Notes under the pieces: generated by a model | Databases searched by the model: none | Seen by the model: only the letters and a program-made list of their open reading frames with translations | What the model was told of the DNA's origin: nothing | Assembly: GCF_030269605.1 (NCBI RefSeq) | Contig: NZ_BSTQ01000017.1 | Coordinates: 62,001 to 126,000, forward strand | DNA: 64,000 nucleotides | Direction of reading: 5' to 3' | Origin: Lentzea sp. NBRC 105346 | GTDB taxonomy: Bacteria; Actinomycetota; Actinomycetes; Mycobacteriales; Pseudonocardiaceae | Shown: piece by piece, positions 683 through 10,204 of the stretch | Layout: every line of letters begins with the position of its first letter | Position numbering within the stretch: the stretch's first letter is position 1 | Program-made: the position numbers and the translations under genes

Positions 683-2013
683 TGCGACGCCTTCTGGTTG
701 TCCAGTTCCTTCTTCAGGTTCTCCGCCAGCGCCTTGAGCTCACCCGCTACGTCCGGGCTGCACTTGGCGAAGATGGAGTTGAGCTTCTCGGAGGTCTGCT
801 GCCGGAACGGGGTGAAGTTCGGGACGCTCGGGAACGGCCGCGCCTGGTCGGCGTAGACCTTCGCCGTCGTGTTCCACCGCTCGTCGTTGTAGACCTCTTT
901 GGTGTTCACGTTCTTGTTGACCGACAGGCGCACGACCGGCTGCGGATCGCCCTTCATGCCCGCCTTCTGCGCGTCCGGCGTGATCAGGTACTCGGCGAGC
1001 TTCTTCTGCTCGGCCGTCTTCGCGGACCCGGCCATCAGGTAGATGTCCTCGCCCTCACCGAGCACAGTGGACCCGGCCGGCCCCTTCGGGGACTCGATGA
1101 CCTCGTACTTGTCCTTGCCCAGGGACTTGTCGAACCGGCCGAGCATGTACGGGCCGGTGAGGTAGATGCCGCTCTTGCCGGACTCGAACAGCGGGTGCGC
1201 GTCGTTCGTGCTCAACGTCAGCGCGCCCGGCTGGATGACCTTGTCGTCACAGAACAGCTTGCGCAGGTACTCGACGGACTTCACCGACTCCTGCGAGTCG
1301 ATCGCGACGGAGAACTTGCCGTTGCCCTGGTCCTTCAGGATGTCGCCGCCGCCCTGCCAGATGTAGCTGGCCGCCCACCAGGCGAGGTAGCCGCGGTCGG
1401 TGGTGCCGGGTACGAGCATCCCGTACGTGTCGGCCTGGCCGTTGCCGTCCGGGTCGTTCTTGGTGAACGCGTTCGCGAGGTCGGCCAGCTCGTCCCACGT
1501 CTTCGGAACCGGCTTGCCGAGCTTCTCGCGCCAGTCCTTGCGGATCAGCGTGATCATGGCCTGCGTCGAGTACGGCACGGCGTAGTACTTGCCGTCCGCG
1601 GCCTTCGCGTTGTTCCACGCGCGGTCGACGATGTCGCCGTTGCCCGCGATCGAGCCCTTGTCGACCTCGGTGACCCAGCCCTGCTTGACGAAGTTGCCGA
1701 GCGAGCCGGTGTCGTTGATGACGACGTCCGGCAGGTCCTTGGACGCGGCCCGCGCCTGCACCTGCTTGTCGAAGTCCTGGTAGATCGGCTTGTAGTCGAC
1801 CTTCACGCCGGTCTTGGCCTCGAAGTCCGCGAAGATCTTGGTGTAGACCTTGGCCGTGGCCTCGGTGCTGCGCGTCCAGACCTCAAGGGGCTTGTTGGGG
1901 TCCTTGTTGGACGTCGCCGCCGGTGTGGACGAGCCACAACCCGCAACCAGCACAGCGATCGCCGAGACCGCGGTGATCGACCAACGAGGCATCTTCAGGA
2001 CCGTCCGTTTCAC
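679..2013 (-). CDS. Extracellular sugar-binding lipoprotein of ABC importer
   Basis: Solute-binding protein of the family-1 sugar type, 444 residues. It has a lipoprotein signal with lipobox LVAGC (Cys26) followed by a Ser/Thr/Pro linker and a typical extracellular sugar-binding fold sequence (for example PDVVINDTGSLGNFVKQGW). The GTG start at 2013 lacks a clear ribosome site; an in-frame ATG at 1992 (residue 8) with GGACGG eight bases upstream also leaves a complete lipoprotein signal and may be the true start. An inverted repeat overlaps the GTG. It probably delivers a uronate-type sugar to the permease encoded just downstream. Substrate is inferred from context. Confidence 0.9.
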   Translation of the reverse strand: MKRTVLKMPRWSITAVSAIAVLVAGCGSSTPAATSNKDPNKPLEVWTRSTEATAKVYTKIFADFEAKTGVKVDYKPIYQDFDKQVQARAASKDLPDVVINDTGSLGNFVKQGWVTEVDKGSIAGNGDIVDRAWNNAKAADGKYYAVPYSTQAMITLIRKDWREKLGKPVPKTWDELADLANAFTKNDPDGNGQADTYGMLVPGTTDRGYLAWWAASYIWQGGGDILKDQGNGKFSVAIDSQESVKSVEYLRKLFCDDKVIQPGALTLSTNDAHPLFESGKSGIYLTGPYMLGRFDKSLGKDKYEVIESPKGPAGSTVLGEGEDIYLMAGSAKTAEQKKLAEYLITPDAQKAGMKGDPQPVVRLSVNKNVNTKEVYNDERWNTTAKVYADQARPFPSVPNFTPFRQQTSEKLNSIFAKCSPDVAGELKALAENLKKELDNQKASQ

Positions 2014-7508: not shown

Positions 7509-7524
7509 TAGTTTGTGCGGCGCT

Positions 7525-8232
7525 ATGTCGATCAATGTCTGGCTCGACCGCAGCGAGCAACTCCTGGCGGGTACCGAGATCTACCGCTCCCATCGGAAGT
7601 TCACGTGGTGGGACTACACATCCGCGCACAGCAGACTGCTGCTGCGCTGCGACGGCGGCACCGACTGGACCCGGATCGACATCCTGTTCAAGTCGGTCTA
7701 CGTGATGAAGGTCCGCAGCAACTACAACGGGCTGCACATCCGTTGCGCCACAACGGCCGAGCAGGAGCACATCCAGCGCGACACCCCGGGGATCACCTAC
7801 TTCGACCCGGCGGAGAGCGAGTTCGACCTCGGGTCGCGGTACTTCATCCTCGACGACGGCAGCGGCGAGCTGGACTACGTCGTCGCGCAGGCCATCGGGT
7901 GGCACGAGGACCACGCGCGCGGCGAGCCGAGCTACTTCGCGCAGCACTGCGACACCCCGCCGTGGGCGCGGACCGCGCTGGACGGCGCGAACGGTGGCTT
8001 CGACACTCCAATTGCGACGGTCAGCGAGTTCGTCGACACAATCGTGATGCCGGAGCACTCGATACCGGCCGAACGGACGCGCTACCGGTTCATCTACGTC
8101 GTCATGGGCCCCGAGCCGCACGCGTACGGCGCGTTCCTCACCCGCGACGAGGCCGAGCGCAACCGGCAGCAGCTGACGCACCGCTACCCGACGGGCCGGT
8201 TCACGATCGACGCCACCCCGGTCCGCATCTAG
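7525..8232 (+). CDS. Uncharacterised protein
   Basis: A 235-residue soluble protein that I do not recognise. It begins MSINVWLDRSEQLL at ATG 7525 (a TTG four codons earlier is possible). It is rich in aromatic residues (FTWWDYTSAHSRLLLRC, ITYFDPAESEFDLGSRYF) and has no signal peptide or membrane segment. The N-terminal half has an immunity-like or sensory beta-rich look, but no motif is decisive. It diverges from the STAND ATPase and is followed ten bases later by a second small protein. Codon use is normal for the window, which supports a real gene. Confidence 0.7.
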   Translation: MSINVWLDRSEQLLAGTEIYRSHRKFTWWDYTSAHSRLLLRCDGGTDWTRIDILFKSVYVMKVRSNYNGLHIRCATTAEQEHIQRDTPGITYFDPAESEFDLGSRYFILDDGSGELDYVVAQAIGWHEDHARGEPSYFAQHCDTPPWARTALDGANGGFDTPIATVSEFVDTIVMPEHSIPAERTRYRFIYVVMGPEPHAYGAFLTRDEAERNRQQLTHRYPTGRFTIDATPVRI

Positions 8233-8242: not shown

Positions 8243-8698
8243 ATGCTGGAAGCTCGAAGAATCAGCTTGTGGCGCAGCCAGTACGAGCTCAGCTCGGACG
8301 GCACGCGGATCGCGACCTGGCACGACCGGCTGTGGCGCAACGGCGGCACCCTCGAGCTGGAGGGCCGCCGCTACGAGGTGAAGTCGAACCTGTTCGCCAC
8401 GCGCTACGAGATGACCGACGAGGCGGGCGAGGTCGTCGCCGTCGCGGACCGCATCGGCCGCAAGCGGTGGACCGTCGAGTCGAACGGGCAGCTGTACCGG
8501 TTCCGGCGCGCCTCATGGTGGCGGCACGAGGAGCAGCTCCTCGAAGGCGACCAGCCGATCGGTTCGGTGAAGCGGGTGAGCGCGTGGCGCAGTGACGCCG
8601 TCGCGGACCTGCCCGGCCTGCCGCTGCCGTTGCAGGTCTTCGTGTTCACCATCGTGCTGACGGCCTGGGACGCCCAGGCGGCCGCCGCGAGCTCTTGA
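8243..8698 (+). CDS. Tubby/LURP-one-like small protein
   Basis: A 151-residue protein without signal peptide. Its alternating short strands (SQYELSSDGTRIATWHDRL, RYEVKSNLFATRYEMTDEAG, DRIGRKRWTVESNGQLYRF) resemble the tubby-C/LURP-one/scramblase-like beta-barrel fold, in which each strand pair restates a feature of the previous one. A hydrophobic C-terminal helix (PLPLQVFVFTIVLTAWDAQ) is compatible with a buried central helix, as in that fold. Function is unknown. It sits between an uncharacterised gene and a MerR sensor whose -35 box overlaps its stop codon. Fold assignment is inference from sequence pattern. Confidence 0.65.
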   Translation: MLEARRISLWRSQYELSSDGTRIATWHDRLWRNGGTLELEGRRYEVKSNLFATRYEMTDEAGEVVAVADRIGRKRWTVESNGQLYRFRRASWWRHEEQLLEGDQPIGSVKRVSAWRSDAVADLPGLPLPLQVFVFTIVLTAWDAQAAAASS

Positions 8699-8726
8699 CC
8701 CTGGAGTGCGGTCCAAGGTTTAGCGT
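8695..8726 (+). promoter_or_regulatory. MerR-type promoter/operator, apparently leaderless
   Basis: TTGACC (8695-8700) and TAGCGT (8721-8726) are separated by 20 bases, the over-long spacer typical of MerR-controlled promoters. The spacer carries an imperfect inverted repeat, ACCCTGGAGT with GGTCCAAGGT (7 of 10 pairs). The TGA stop of the previous gene lies within the -35 box. The -10 box ends seven bases before the merR ATG, so transcription likely starts at the start codon. Confidence 0.7.
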
Positions 8727-8733
8727 GGATCGC

Positions 8734-9141
8734 ATGAGAGTCGCCGAACTCGCCCGCGAGACGGGAGTGCGGCCGGACACCGTGCGCTACTACGAACGCA
8801 CGGGCCTGCTCGCCCCGCCGCCGCGCACCGCGTCGGGGTACCGCCAGTACCCCGCGGACGCCGCCGAACGCATCCGGTTCATCCAGGGCTGCCAGCGCCT
8901 CGGGCTGCGGCTCAAGGAGATCGCCGAGCTGCTCGCCGTGCGCGACACCGGCGTGTGCCCGTGCGAGCCGGCGGAAACGTTGCTGCACCGGCACATCGCC
9001 GAGCTCGACGCCGAGATCCGGCGGCTCTCCGGTCTGCGCGCCGAGCTCGTGCGGATGGTCGGGGCACTCCCAGGGGGTGAGTGCCCCGACATCGCGCCCG
9101 GTGTCTGGTGTCCACCGGAGGGAGGTGATCGGGATGGGTGA
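8734..9141 (+). CDS. MerR-family thiol/metal-responsive regulator
   Basis: A 135-residue regulator with an N-terminal MerR helix-turn-helix (RVAELARETGVRPDTVRYYE) and a coiled-coil dimer helix. Cysteines are placed for metal binding: C75 and C77 (VCPCEP) near the start of the dimer helix, and C117 and C126 in the C-terminal loop, the same spacing as the C117/C126 pair of mercury MerR. It therefore probably senses a soft or borderline metal; which one is not determinable. ATG 8734 is chosen because the MerR-type promoter lies immediately upstream. The 3' end overlaps a cysteine-rich micro-peptide gene. Confidence 0.85.
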   Translation: MRVAELARETGVRPDTVRYYERTGLLAPPPRTASGYRQYPADAAERIRFIQGCQRLGLRLKEIAELLAVRDTGVCPCEPAETLLHRHIAELDAEIRRLSGLRAELVRMVGALPGGECPDIAPGVWCPPEGGDRDG

Positions 9142-9172
9142 CGACTGCTGCACCGACTGCGGCTGCTGCTAG
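9134..9172 (+). CDS. Cysteine-rich 12-residue micro-peptide, possible mini-metallothionein
   Basis: ATG 9134 to TAG 9170-9172 encodes MGDDCCTDCGCC: five Cys and three Asp in twelve residues. It overlaps the end of merR by eight bases in another frame. The ribosome site GGAGGTGATC (9121-9130) is an unusually complete match to the 16S anti-Shine-Dalgarno sequence, with good spacing to the ATG. The CC-x2-C-x-CC pattern is metallothionein-like, and the upstream gene is a thiol-type MerR sensor, so metal buffering or a metal-sensing peptide role is plausible. No homologue is known to me. A hairpin follows 11 bases after the stop. Confidence 0.65.
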   Translation: MGDDCCTDCGCC

Positions 9173-9183
9173 CCCGCTGACCG

Positions 9184-9204
9184 GGAGGCGAGGCGCCCGC
9201 CTCC
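9184..9204 (+). terminator. Hairpin after merR/micro-peptide unit
   Basis: GGAGGCG (9184-9190) pairs with CGCCTCC (9198-9204) around a seven-base loop. It is GC-rich, lacks a T-run, and lies just after the micro-peptide stop, at the position expected for the end of the transcript. Confidence 0.45.
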
Positions 9205-9335
9205 TACCGCAGGATCTGCGCCCAGACGTCCCAGTGGTCCGCCGACACCCACGTCAACACGCCCGGCCAGTCCGGCCGTCCGCAGCCGGCGCCGAGCACG
9301 GCTCCCGCGACGGTCGCCCACTTCCGGTGCGTCGT
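9204..9335 (-). pseudogene. Collapsed copy of the adjacent trypsin-like protease gene
   Basis: The reverse strand reads RKWATVAGAVLG, matching the signal peptide of the protease at 9370-10173 (RKWAAVAGAVLG), and then jumps directly to CGRPDWPGVLTWVSADHWDVW and AQILR at a TAG, matching the protease C-terminus (CARPDAAGVYARVSTHYRDI, LAQIIH). The whole catalytic domain is missing. The two start codons are altered to ACG ACG (9335-9330), and homology continues upstream into the leader. This is an internal-deletion relic of a tandem duplication, not a functional gene. Confidence 0.8.
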
Positions 9336-9369
9336 GTCTCCCGGCGATTTCGCTTGCGGTGCAACGGAC

Positions 9370-10173
9370 CTAGTGGATGATCTGCGCCAAGATGTCCCGG
9401 TAGTGCGTCGACACCCGCGCGTACACGCCCGCCGCGTCCGGCCGGGCACAACCGCGGCCCCACGACGTGATTCCGACGATCTTGCCCCGCACGAGCAGCG
9501 GGCCGCCCGAGTCGCCCGCGCACGTGTCCACGCCGCCCTGGGGCACGCCCGCGCAGATCTGAGTCCGCTTGTCGAACGCCCGCAGGTCCGGGCCCGCCGG
9601 GTACTGCGCCGCGCACGTCTCGTCGCTGATGAGCGGCACGGTGGCCTTCCGCAGCTGGTCCGACGGCTCGGTGGGCTCGGTCGGTTCCTCGGTGAGGCCC
9701 CAGCCGAGCACGGTCGTGGCGGTGCCGGGCCGTTCCCGCCATTTGTCCAGCGGACCCGCGAACGGCACCGGGCGGTACGGCAACGGCTGCTTCAGCGTCA
9801 TCACGGCGACGTCGTGGCGGCCGTCCTCGTCGTACTTCGGGTGCACCCAGATCTTCTCAACACCGACGACGACGCCCGCGTCGCTCGACCGGACGTCCCG
9901 GCGCGCGACGACCTTGTACCCCTCGGGCTTGCGGAACACGCAGTGCGCCGCCGTCAGAACCTTGGCCGGCGCGACGAGGCTGCCACCGCAGAAGAGCTCG
10001 TGGTCGTTCTCGGCCGGGGCGAGGTACACCATCCACGGGTAGTCCGCGGTGGACGCCTCCGTTCCGCCGACCACCGTGCCGTGCACGTCATCCGGGTCAG
10101 CGGACGCCGTCCCCAGGGGAAGGAGTAGGCCGAGCACGGCTCCCGCGACGGCCGCCCACTTCCGGTTCATCAT
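9370..10173 (-). CDS. Secreted trypsin-like serine protease (S1)
   Basis: A 267-residue exported protease. A Sec signal (MMNRKWAAVAGAVLGLLLPL, cleavage near TASA-DPDD) is followed by a very short propeptide and the trypsin N-terminus VVGGTEAS at residue 34, implying zymogen activation before Val34. The catalytic triad is H77 (TAAHC), D121 (DVAVM) and S222 (GDSGGP); Asp six residues before the serine (D216 in GVDTCAGDSGG) suggests trypsin-like specificity for Arg/Lys. Paired cysteines around the active site fit disulfides. Start at the tandem ATGs, with GGGAG upstream. A degenerate copy lies just downstream. Confidence 0.92.
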   Translation of the reverse strand: MMNRKWAAVAGAVLGLLLPLGTASADPDDVHGTVVGGTEASTADYPWMVYLAPAENDHELFCGGSLVAPAKVLTAAHCVFRKPEGYKVVARRDVRSSDAGVVVGVEKIWVHPKYDEDGRHDVAVMTLKQPLPYRPVPFAGPLDKWRERPGTATTVLGWGLTEEPTEPTEPSDQLRKATVPLISDETCAAQYPAGPDLRAFDKRTQICAGVPQGGVDTCAGDSGGPLLVRGKIVGITSWGRGCARPDAAGVYARVSTHYRDILAQIIH

Positions 10174-10177
10174 GTCT

Positions 10178-10204
10178 CCCGTTGTTCGCTTGCAGTGCAA
10201 CGGG
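10178..10204 (-). promoter_or_regulatory. Leader hairpin overlapping protease ribosome site
   Basis: CCCGTTG (10178-10184) and CAACGGG (10198-10204) form a perfect 7-bp stem just upstream of the protease start on the reverse strand. The ribosome site GGGAG (complement of 10176-10180) starts inside the stem, so folding could limit translation. The decayed copy downstream has lost this pairing. Confidence 0.45.

Follow-up and report, generated by a model that had tools for sequence, protein, structure and literature searches.

A cysteine-rich micropeptide frame at the end of merR in Lentzea and other Actinomycetota: a probable metal sensor and micro-metallothionein unit

What might a cysteine-rich frame of only 12 codons do at the very end of a merR gene? 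The question arose in the window, by which we mean the whole 64,000-nucleotide stretch of Lentzea sp. NBRC 105346 DNA under analysis, where a first-pass annotation had proposed that the frame encodes either a minimal metallothionein or a metal-dependent leader peptide made together with its regulator. The elements concerned, in order along the forward strand, are the following.

8695..8726, forward strand: MerR-type promoter/operator TTGACC-CTGGAGTGCGGTCCAAGGTT-TAGCGT, with a 20-bp spacer and the imperfect dyad CTGGAGTGCGGTCCAAGG
8734..9141, forward strand: merR, encoding a 135-aa MerR regulator of the divalent-metal type, with a predicted leaderless start
9121..9130, forward strand: Shine-Dalgarno (SD) sequence GGAGGTGATC within the merR 3' end, a 10-nt SD match
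9134..9172, forward strand: cysteine-rich micropeptide gene MGDDCCTDCGCC, 12 codons plus TAG, overlapping merR by 8 bases
9184..9204, forward strand: hairpin GGAGGCG / loop AGGCGCC / CGCCTCC, the probable terminator of the merR-peptide transcript

The MerR-type promoter, the thiol-type merR gene, the overlapping cysteine frame and the near-complete ribosome site that the first-pass annotation had described were all recovered at these positions. The peptide frame reads ATGGGTGACGACTGCTGCACCGACTGCGGCTGCTGCTAG. The ATG of merR lies 7 nt past the -10 element, and the mRNA is therefore predicted to be leaderless. The hairpin that had been placed past the peptide stop is also present, but folding lends it little support, since the region folds no better than its shuffles (z -0.04). 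The 70 nt past the window's own peptide stop gave z -0.5, and the same interval across the family folds moderately better than shuffles (median z -1.6, with z below -2 in 33 of 93); we regard the hairpin as probably the operon terminator. The likely genes beyond it are on the opposite strand and read as convergent.

Several features of the surrounding DNA are recorded here in their own right. For two forward-strand ORFs upstream of merR (7513-8232 and 8243-8698), Pfam gave nothing at E 0.001. A segment of 77 bases (9291-9367), located between the peptide gene and a trypsin-like protease, is 88% identical to 10128-10202 in the 5' region of the protease, and the end of a minus-strand ORF (9204-9449) resembles, by eye, the protease C-terminus; on account of this repeat and this resemblance, the 9204-9449 region looks like an internally deleted copy of the protease.

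The regulator itself has cysteines at positions 53, 75, 77, 117 and 126, set in part within the motifs RDTGVCPCEPA and PGVWCPP. Its HTH and dimerisation regions exceed the Pfam cut-offs for MerR_1 (71.6 bits) and MerR-DNA-bind (62.7 bits), and the cut-offs of the NCBIfam equivalogs for MerR, CadR-PbrR, ZntR and CueR were all missed, the best score being that of Hg MerR (93.9 bits, with 150.85 needed). The top NCBIfam and PDB models were those of Hg and Cd sensors. In a profile search against solved structures, Cys77 aligned with a cysteine of CadR (6jgf, 6jgv) and of 4ua1, which we take to be an Hg-type MerR; by this alignment, Cys77 would stand at the start of the dimerisation helix as the mark of divalent soft-metal sensors.

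Relatives of the unit were collected at increasing taxonomic depth. Within Lentzea, a MerR match at E<=1e-30 was found in 12 of 24 genomes, and 11 of these 12 have a cysteine-rich frame at the merR stop (MDDCCTSCDCC, MDDCCTCCDCC, MEDDCCIGCDCC, VDDCCTACDCC and others); the frame is absent from the twelfth (L019; loci are given by our own numbers), whose MerR is a 57% identical relative. MerR-alignment searches found the regulator in 52 of 390 genomes of the family (E<=1e-38) and, at E<=1e-30, in 45 of 397 of the order, 9 of 394 of the class and 26 of 396 of the phylum, in samples that overlap. Given these partial counts at every rank, the merR-peptide unit is patchy, like many accessory stress genes. 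The named loci from GTDB contigs were the best 80 of 116, and MerR places without a locus from two of these wider searches were fetched as well. The resulting 211 loci were collapsed to 171 distinct ones wherever the 450 bases around the merR stop were exactly identical. Close species are retained by this step (Amycolatopsis, for example, contributes 14 peptides of a single length), and the counts therefore do not represent independent events. A peptide frame was defined by 8-40 codons, at least four Cys, at least 20% Cys, an SD match of at least 5 nt and a start between -48 and +70 relative to the merR stop, the thresholds (MerR score 125, SD 5, Cys 4) having been set after inspection of the first loci.

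Among the 105 distinct loci with a MerR score of at least 125, a separate cysteine-rich frame of 11-30 codons with an SD sequence sits at the merR stop in 90. Two more (L081, L196) have such a frame with no clear SD sequence, one (L136) has a frame that was found by eye, MFELTCPCDPDWTDCECSNGCC, and in two (L147, L188) the cysteine-rich stretch is fused in frame to MerR. The peptide is absent from the other ten, nine of which have MerR tails of the WRPP/WKPP type and the tenth of which is L173. As a control, the same search at the ends of other ORFs in this DNA (120 codons or longer, spurious frames included) found 2 cases in 3486, or 4 in 3486 when the SD sequence was not required. The comparison of 90 of 105 with 2 of 3486 shows that the cysteine frame at the merR stop exceeds chance. 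The first-pass annotation had staked its reading on such conservation, and the frame, its SD sequence and its cysteines are indeed kept beside orthologous merR genes, both in the window's class of Actinomycetota and beyond it.

Below a MerR score of 125, frames of this kind were found at 3 of 66 distinct loci (L183, L199, L207), alongside one further fusion (L208), and longer cysteine-rich proteins at L198 (98 aa; 1961-2254) and L204 (81 aa; 1151-1393, minus strand). The latter two stand behind more distant MerRs, have no Pfam match and are possibly expanded relatives of the micropeptide. At L197, a 19-codon frame with two Cys only, MTKPKPIPYEPSCPDCPID (1358-1414, minus strand), overlaps the merR stop and is perhaps a degenerate or divergent form of the peptide. 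None of the 38 loci L085-L122, of which Streptomyces L086 is the sole one from Actinomycetota, has a qualifying frame. In a rough tree of 135 rows and few columns, the peptide is spread across the MerR subfamily; the WR tag that L183 bears in this tree is an artefact of reading its end out of frame. We also note that the Rhodococcus conjugative plasmid pGA1 (L215) carries a merR-peptide pair between recombinase genes and an IS element, and that its peptide, MHDCCEDPMCPPELCGCGC (after 4402), is missing from the PLSDB gene table, which is itself incomplete.

The 83 distinct peptides range in length from 11 to 30 residues (median 19) and contain 4-10 Cys (median 6). Cys makes up 36% of residues overall (median 35%), cysteine-richness having itself been a selection criterion, and Asp 17%; the median net charge is -4. 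They contain 157 CC, 168 CxC and 43 CxxC motifs, and their high Cys and few hydrophobic residues are as in metallothioneins. Pfam and NCBIfam models found no family in eight of the 83, chosen among the longer ones, the window's 12-mer being too short for such a scan. Among the 93 peptide loci, which by selection all have a start codon and an SD sequence matched over at least 5 nt, the match reaches at least 7 nt in 88, and ATG, GTG and TTG starts number 75, 17 and 1.

Four aligned groups were pooled for codon-position variation (two from Lentzea, one from Amycolatopsis and one from Actinomycetospora, being single-length sets of at least three rows, with 7, 4, 14 and 6 rows; other lengths were left out). 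Over 59 codons, variable sites fell at codon positions 1, 2 and 3 in the ratio 7:13:28 (chi-square 14.6, p 0.0007, with sites treated as independent), and because third positions vary most, the peptide frame is very probably translated. Conservation together with this bias led us to reject a spurious frame. That the locus is a conserved DNA or RNA signal that reads as cysteine-rich by accident is extremely unlikely: the frequent CC-stop ending (58 of 83 distinct peptides) would fit such a signal, and against it stand the concentration of variation at third positions, the exchange of TGC and TGT (562 and 41 Cys codons, respectively), the in-frame fusions and the strong SD matches, as well as the lack of any Rfam match at the gathering score in 8600-9300, on which a known RNA element was rejected. 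A programmed frameshift that would join the peptide to MerR was likewise set aside, as peptide starts range from -17 to +53 relative to the merR stop and have their own SD sequence. A RiPP precursor was rejected because no modification enzyme was recognised by eye among 25 neighbour proteins.

The presence of the peptide goes with the promoter. In a scan with a loose operator pattern, 96 of 101 peptide-type loci had a match ahead of merR, compared with 5 of 26 other loci (Fisher p 7e-15, with relatedness ignored). Counted among the 101 are the three fusions and five loci that were assigned to the peptide class by eye (L081, L136 and L196, and the longer proteins of L198 and L204). An operator match accompanies an absent peptide at L030, L173 (a doubtful match), L197, L200 and L203. 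Under a strict pattern, 79 of the 126 loci with a MerR score of at least 110 showed the promoter, and many of those missed have the Amycolatopsis TTGATT variant. The start codon is 6-8 nt past the -10 element in 76 of the 79, and the spacer, allowed to vary from 18 to 21 bp, is 20 bp in 78, the 19 bp of L191 probably not marking a true site. Many relatives have TTGACCTTGGAGT...CTCCAAGGTTTACCGT at the equivalent place. In the window's own genome, the operator 28-mer has one site within 3 mismatches and no second target was seen within that limit. A dyad-filtered operator scan proved too strict, missing the window's own site, and its negatives were not used.

Other proteins appear behind or opposite the same kind of promoter where the peptide is absent. 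The plasmids pFRL4 (Streptomyces) and pGD22-1 (Mycobacteroides abscessus) encode peptide-less, WR-tailed MerRs that are 58-62% identical to that of the window, and a similar operator (for example, TTGACTCTGGAGTGCACTCCAAGTTCTAGAGT) faces a divergent heavy-metal P-type ATPase in these plasmids. The ATPases score 560-563 bits with TIGR01525, 453-465 bits with the Cd-type TIGR01512, above its cut-off, and 416-418 bits with the Cu-type TIGR01511 (cut-off 397). Cys77 and the Cd-type score of these partners favour a metal of the Zn/Cd/Pb/Hg type as the one probably sensed, and the metal may be copper, as the same ATPases also pass the Cu-type cut-off. At L201 (1884-2150) and L203 (1926-2201), the peptide's slot is occupied by a small Thioredoxin_3-type protein that carries the motifs CPVC and CPDC and whose frame overlaps the merR stop.

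These thioredoxin-like proteins could be taken to mean that MerR senses thiol stress and that the peptide serves as a disulfide or thiol buffer linked to redox state or mycothiol and not as a metal ligand. Soft-metal and thiol stress overlap, and in Actinophytocola a pyridine nucleotide-disulphide oxidoreductase is divergent from merR (L059, 3498-4907; L062, 3498-4877; both on the minus strand), the enzyme falling below every NCBIfam cut-off shown, with lipoamide dehydrogenase (291-292 bits) and MerA (264-277 bits) among the closest. We consider a redox role very unlikely, however, as the best NCBIfam and PDB scores of MerR are those of Hg and Cd sensors with the metal cysteine in place, a similar promoter drives metal ATPases, and the abundant CC and CxC motifs suit metal clusters.

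The tail of MerR raises a further alternative, in which the peptide is a detached MerR tail that hands metal to the regulator or strips it away, and thereby determines at what threshold the sensor responds or how it shuts off, with no detoxification. The cysteine-rich stretch is an in-frame C-terminal tail of MerR in L147, L188 and L208 (scores 159, 139 and 110), and the peptide and the last MerR Cys are jointly absent at two places in the tree, namely a WR clade of eight rows (99/97 support) and L030. All nine MerRs with a score of at least 125 in which the last Cys is replaced within a WR or WK tail have no peptide, and the eight WR/WK MerRs of the clade have an operator site in neither scan. 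Strict co-loss was rejected, as L033 and the Rhodococcus plasmid locus L215 have the peptide with the last MerR Cys absent, and the pattern was kept as supporting evidence only. A detached tail is nevertheless unlikely: the sequence, length and spacing of the peptide are highly variable next to a conserved MerR, unlike those of a fixed binding partner, the strong SD sequence suggests that peptide output exceeds MerR output, and the metal exporter under a similar promoter in the plasmid relatives points to an effector. As a separate observation, six WRPP/WKPP-tailed MerRs with neither operator match nor peptide (L154, L167, L168, L170, L171, L175) have polyketide synthase-like genes, APC permease-like genes or both as neighbours (by eye), which suggests a changed role; several MerRs of the WR clade have neighbours of this kind.

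The neighbourhood bears on the second half of the first-pass proposal, that of a leader. Neighbour genes were called crudely, as ORFs of at least 80 codons picked by codon GC. Of 80 distinct peptide loci, 51 are followed by a convergent gene call and 29 by one on the same strand, and no downstream or neighbour family spans all genera among the peptide loci. Most of the 25 neighbour proteins read by eye look unrelated to metal (threonyl-tRNA synthetase, DinB-like, acyl-CoA dehydrogenase-like and others). The exceptions comprise an ArsR/SmtB metalloregulator gene, above its cut-off, that adjoins L069, L130 and L139 (all of Geodermatophilaceae type), a cation-efflux protein in the vicinity of L190, a protein like LMW phosphatase or arsenate reductase beside L063 and the divergent disulphide oxidoreductase of L059 and L062. 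From the neighbours and the convergent next genes it follows that merR and the peptide form a mostly free-standing unit, with a minority in metal-related neighbourhoods, and the stimulus is accordingly read from MerR and its plasmid relatives alone.

A cysteine- or metal-responsive attenuator, in which slow translation of the Cys codons would control a downstream gene or terminator, draws some support from the same-strand genes and from runs of Cys codons near a possible terminator, which resemble the leaderless polycysteine attenuators of mycobacteria as these are described in the consulted part of PMC9031893. It fares poorly against the opposite-strand gene that follows in the window and at most loci, the absence of a downstream family spanning genera, the placement of the frame behind merR instead of at a leader's 5' end, the variable Cys positions and length, and the existence of MerR fusions. 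We rejected attenuation as the main explanation on the missing cross-genus gene and the prevailing convergence, and judge it highly improbable. Between the two halves of the first-pass proposal, the metallothionein is thus favoured and the leader disfavoured, on the strength of the conserved MerR-type promoter, a downstream gene that is not generally conserved and the exchange of the slot with exporters or thioredoxin-like proteins.

The reading that we prefer, and hold to be probable on the sequence evidence, is a two-gene unit of an autoregulated metal sensor and a micro-metallothionein. A thiophilic divalent metal ion of the Zn/Cd/Pb/Hg type would be bound by MerR through Cys77 and the C-terminal cysteines, and the loaded regulator would untwist its own promoter with the 20-bp spacer and turn on a short transcript, steps of activation that follow established knowledge of the MerR family. 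MerR would be made from the leaderless 5' end of this transcript and the peptide from the near-perfect SD sequence inside the merR end, probably at a higher rate than MerR. The acidic peptide, of 11-30 residues and about one-third Cys, would then chelate the metal, and the resulting fall in free metal would switch the sensor off again. The sequences show the layout of the unit, its conservation, the coding constraint on the peptide and the linkage to the promoter; from these we infer the identity of the metal, the expression level, the metal binding and the protection, the binding from composition, wiring and slot swaps. Certain points weigh against a micro-metallothionein: peptides of 12 residues may be degraded quickly, and L173 has neither a peptide nor an obvious excuse. 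One peptide would also probably hold only 1-2 ions, so that protection would need high expression.

We put forward a wider claim with evenly balanced confidence, namely that these frames may represent an unannotated, widespread class of metallothioneins, at 11-30 residues the smallest to be genetically encoded and ribosomally made counterparts of phytochelatins. Each would share one autoregulated transcript with its own MerR, a minimal device to sense and sequester that gives way to exporters or thioredoxin-like proteins at promoters of this kind and is in some cases fused into the sensor. If this is true, a recurrent actinobacterial family of metal-binding micropeptides has been overlooked so far, in organisms that use mycothiol and not glutathione. 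At about 500 bases, the unit would be a complete metal circuit, suited both to asking what the minimum length of a functional metallothionein is and to use as a biosensor and chelator part. The case also illustrates that genes this short are recognisable through their linkage to a conserved regulator and promoter despite fast change in their own sequence.

Comparison with known systems places the unit among several relatives. With the divalent-metal regulators MerR, CadR and ZntR, the window MerR has in common the family domains, the metal-binding Cys77 and the promoter with a 20-bp spacer, and it differs in its additional CPC motif, its PGxWCPP tail, its scores under the listed NCBIfam equivalog cut-offs and the fact that its sole target seen is its own transcript. 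SmtA and MymT are under metal-sensor control, and the bacterial metallothioneins (SmtA, PmtA, MymT) are likewise small and rich in Cys, but they are longer, at some 50 residues or more. In phytochelatins and designed (Glu-Cys)n peptides, acidic residues alternate with Cys, as they do in peptides such as MDCECDCECGSGCC of Saccharothrix deserti (L044), whereas the peptide here would be made by ribosomes from a gene beside its sensor.

No description of a merR-peptide unit was found in the consulted parts of the literature, which comprised open-licence papers. The polycysteine ORFs of mycobacteria (Canestrari et al. 2020, as cited in the consulted part of PMC9031893) are also very short, cysteine-rich actinobacterial frames, but they are leaderless and lie ahead of operons, whereas the window's frame has a strong SD sequence and lies after merR and before a probable terminator. 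A third relative, in idea, is the sensing of copper by a nascent protein (PMC9973294, in the part consulted). The nearest published case found is that of PMC12301328, the consulted part of which names SmtA and PmtA as bacterial metallothioneins and describes how CadR, a Zn/Cd-type MerR of Pseudomonas aeruginosa, activates Zrd, a small and until then uncharacterised metal-binding candidate that its authors liken to metallothioneins. A Zn/Cd-type MerR and a small metal-binding candidate are common to both systems, but Zrd, as described there, has two predicted zinc ribbons and sits between two converging genes, whereas the peptide here has 11-30 residues and is encoded where its own merR ends, under a promoter that the two genes have in common. 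The candidate novelty of the present unit is therefore a very small metallothionein-like effector that appears to be wired into one transcript with its sensor.
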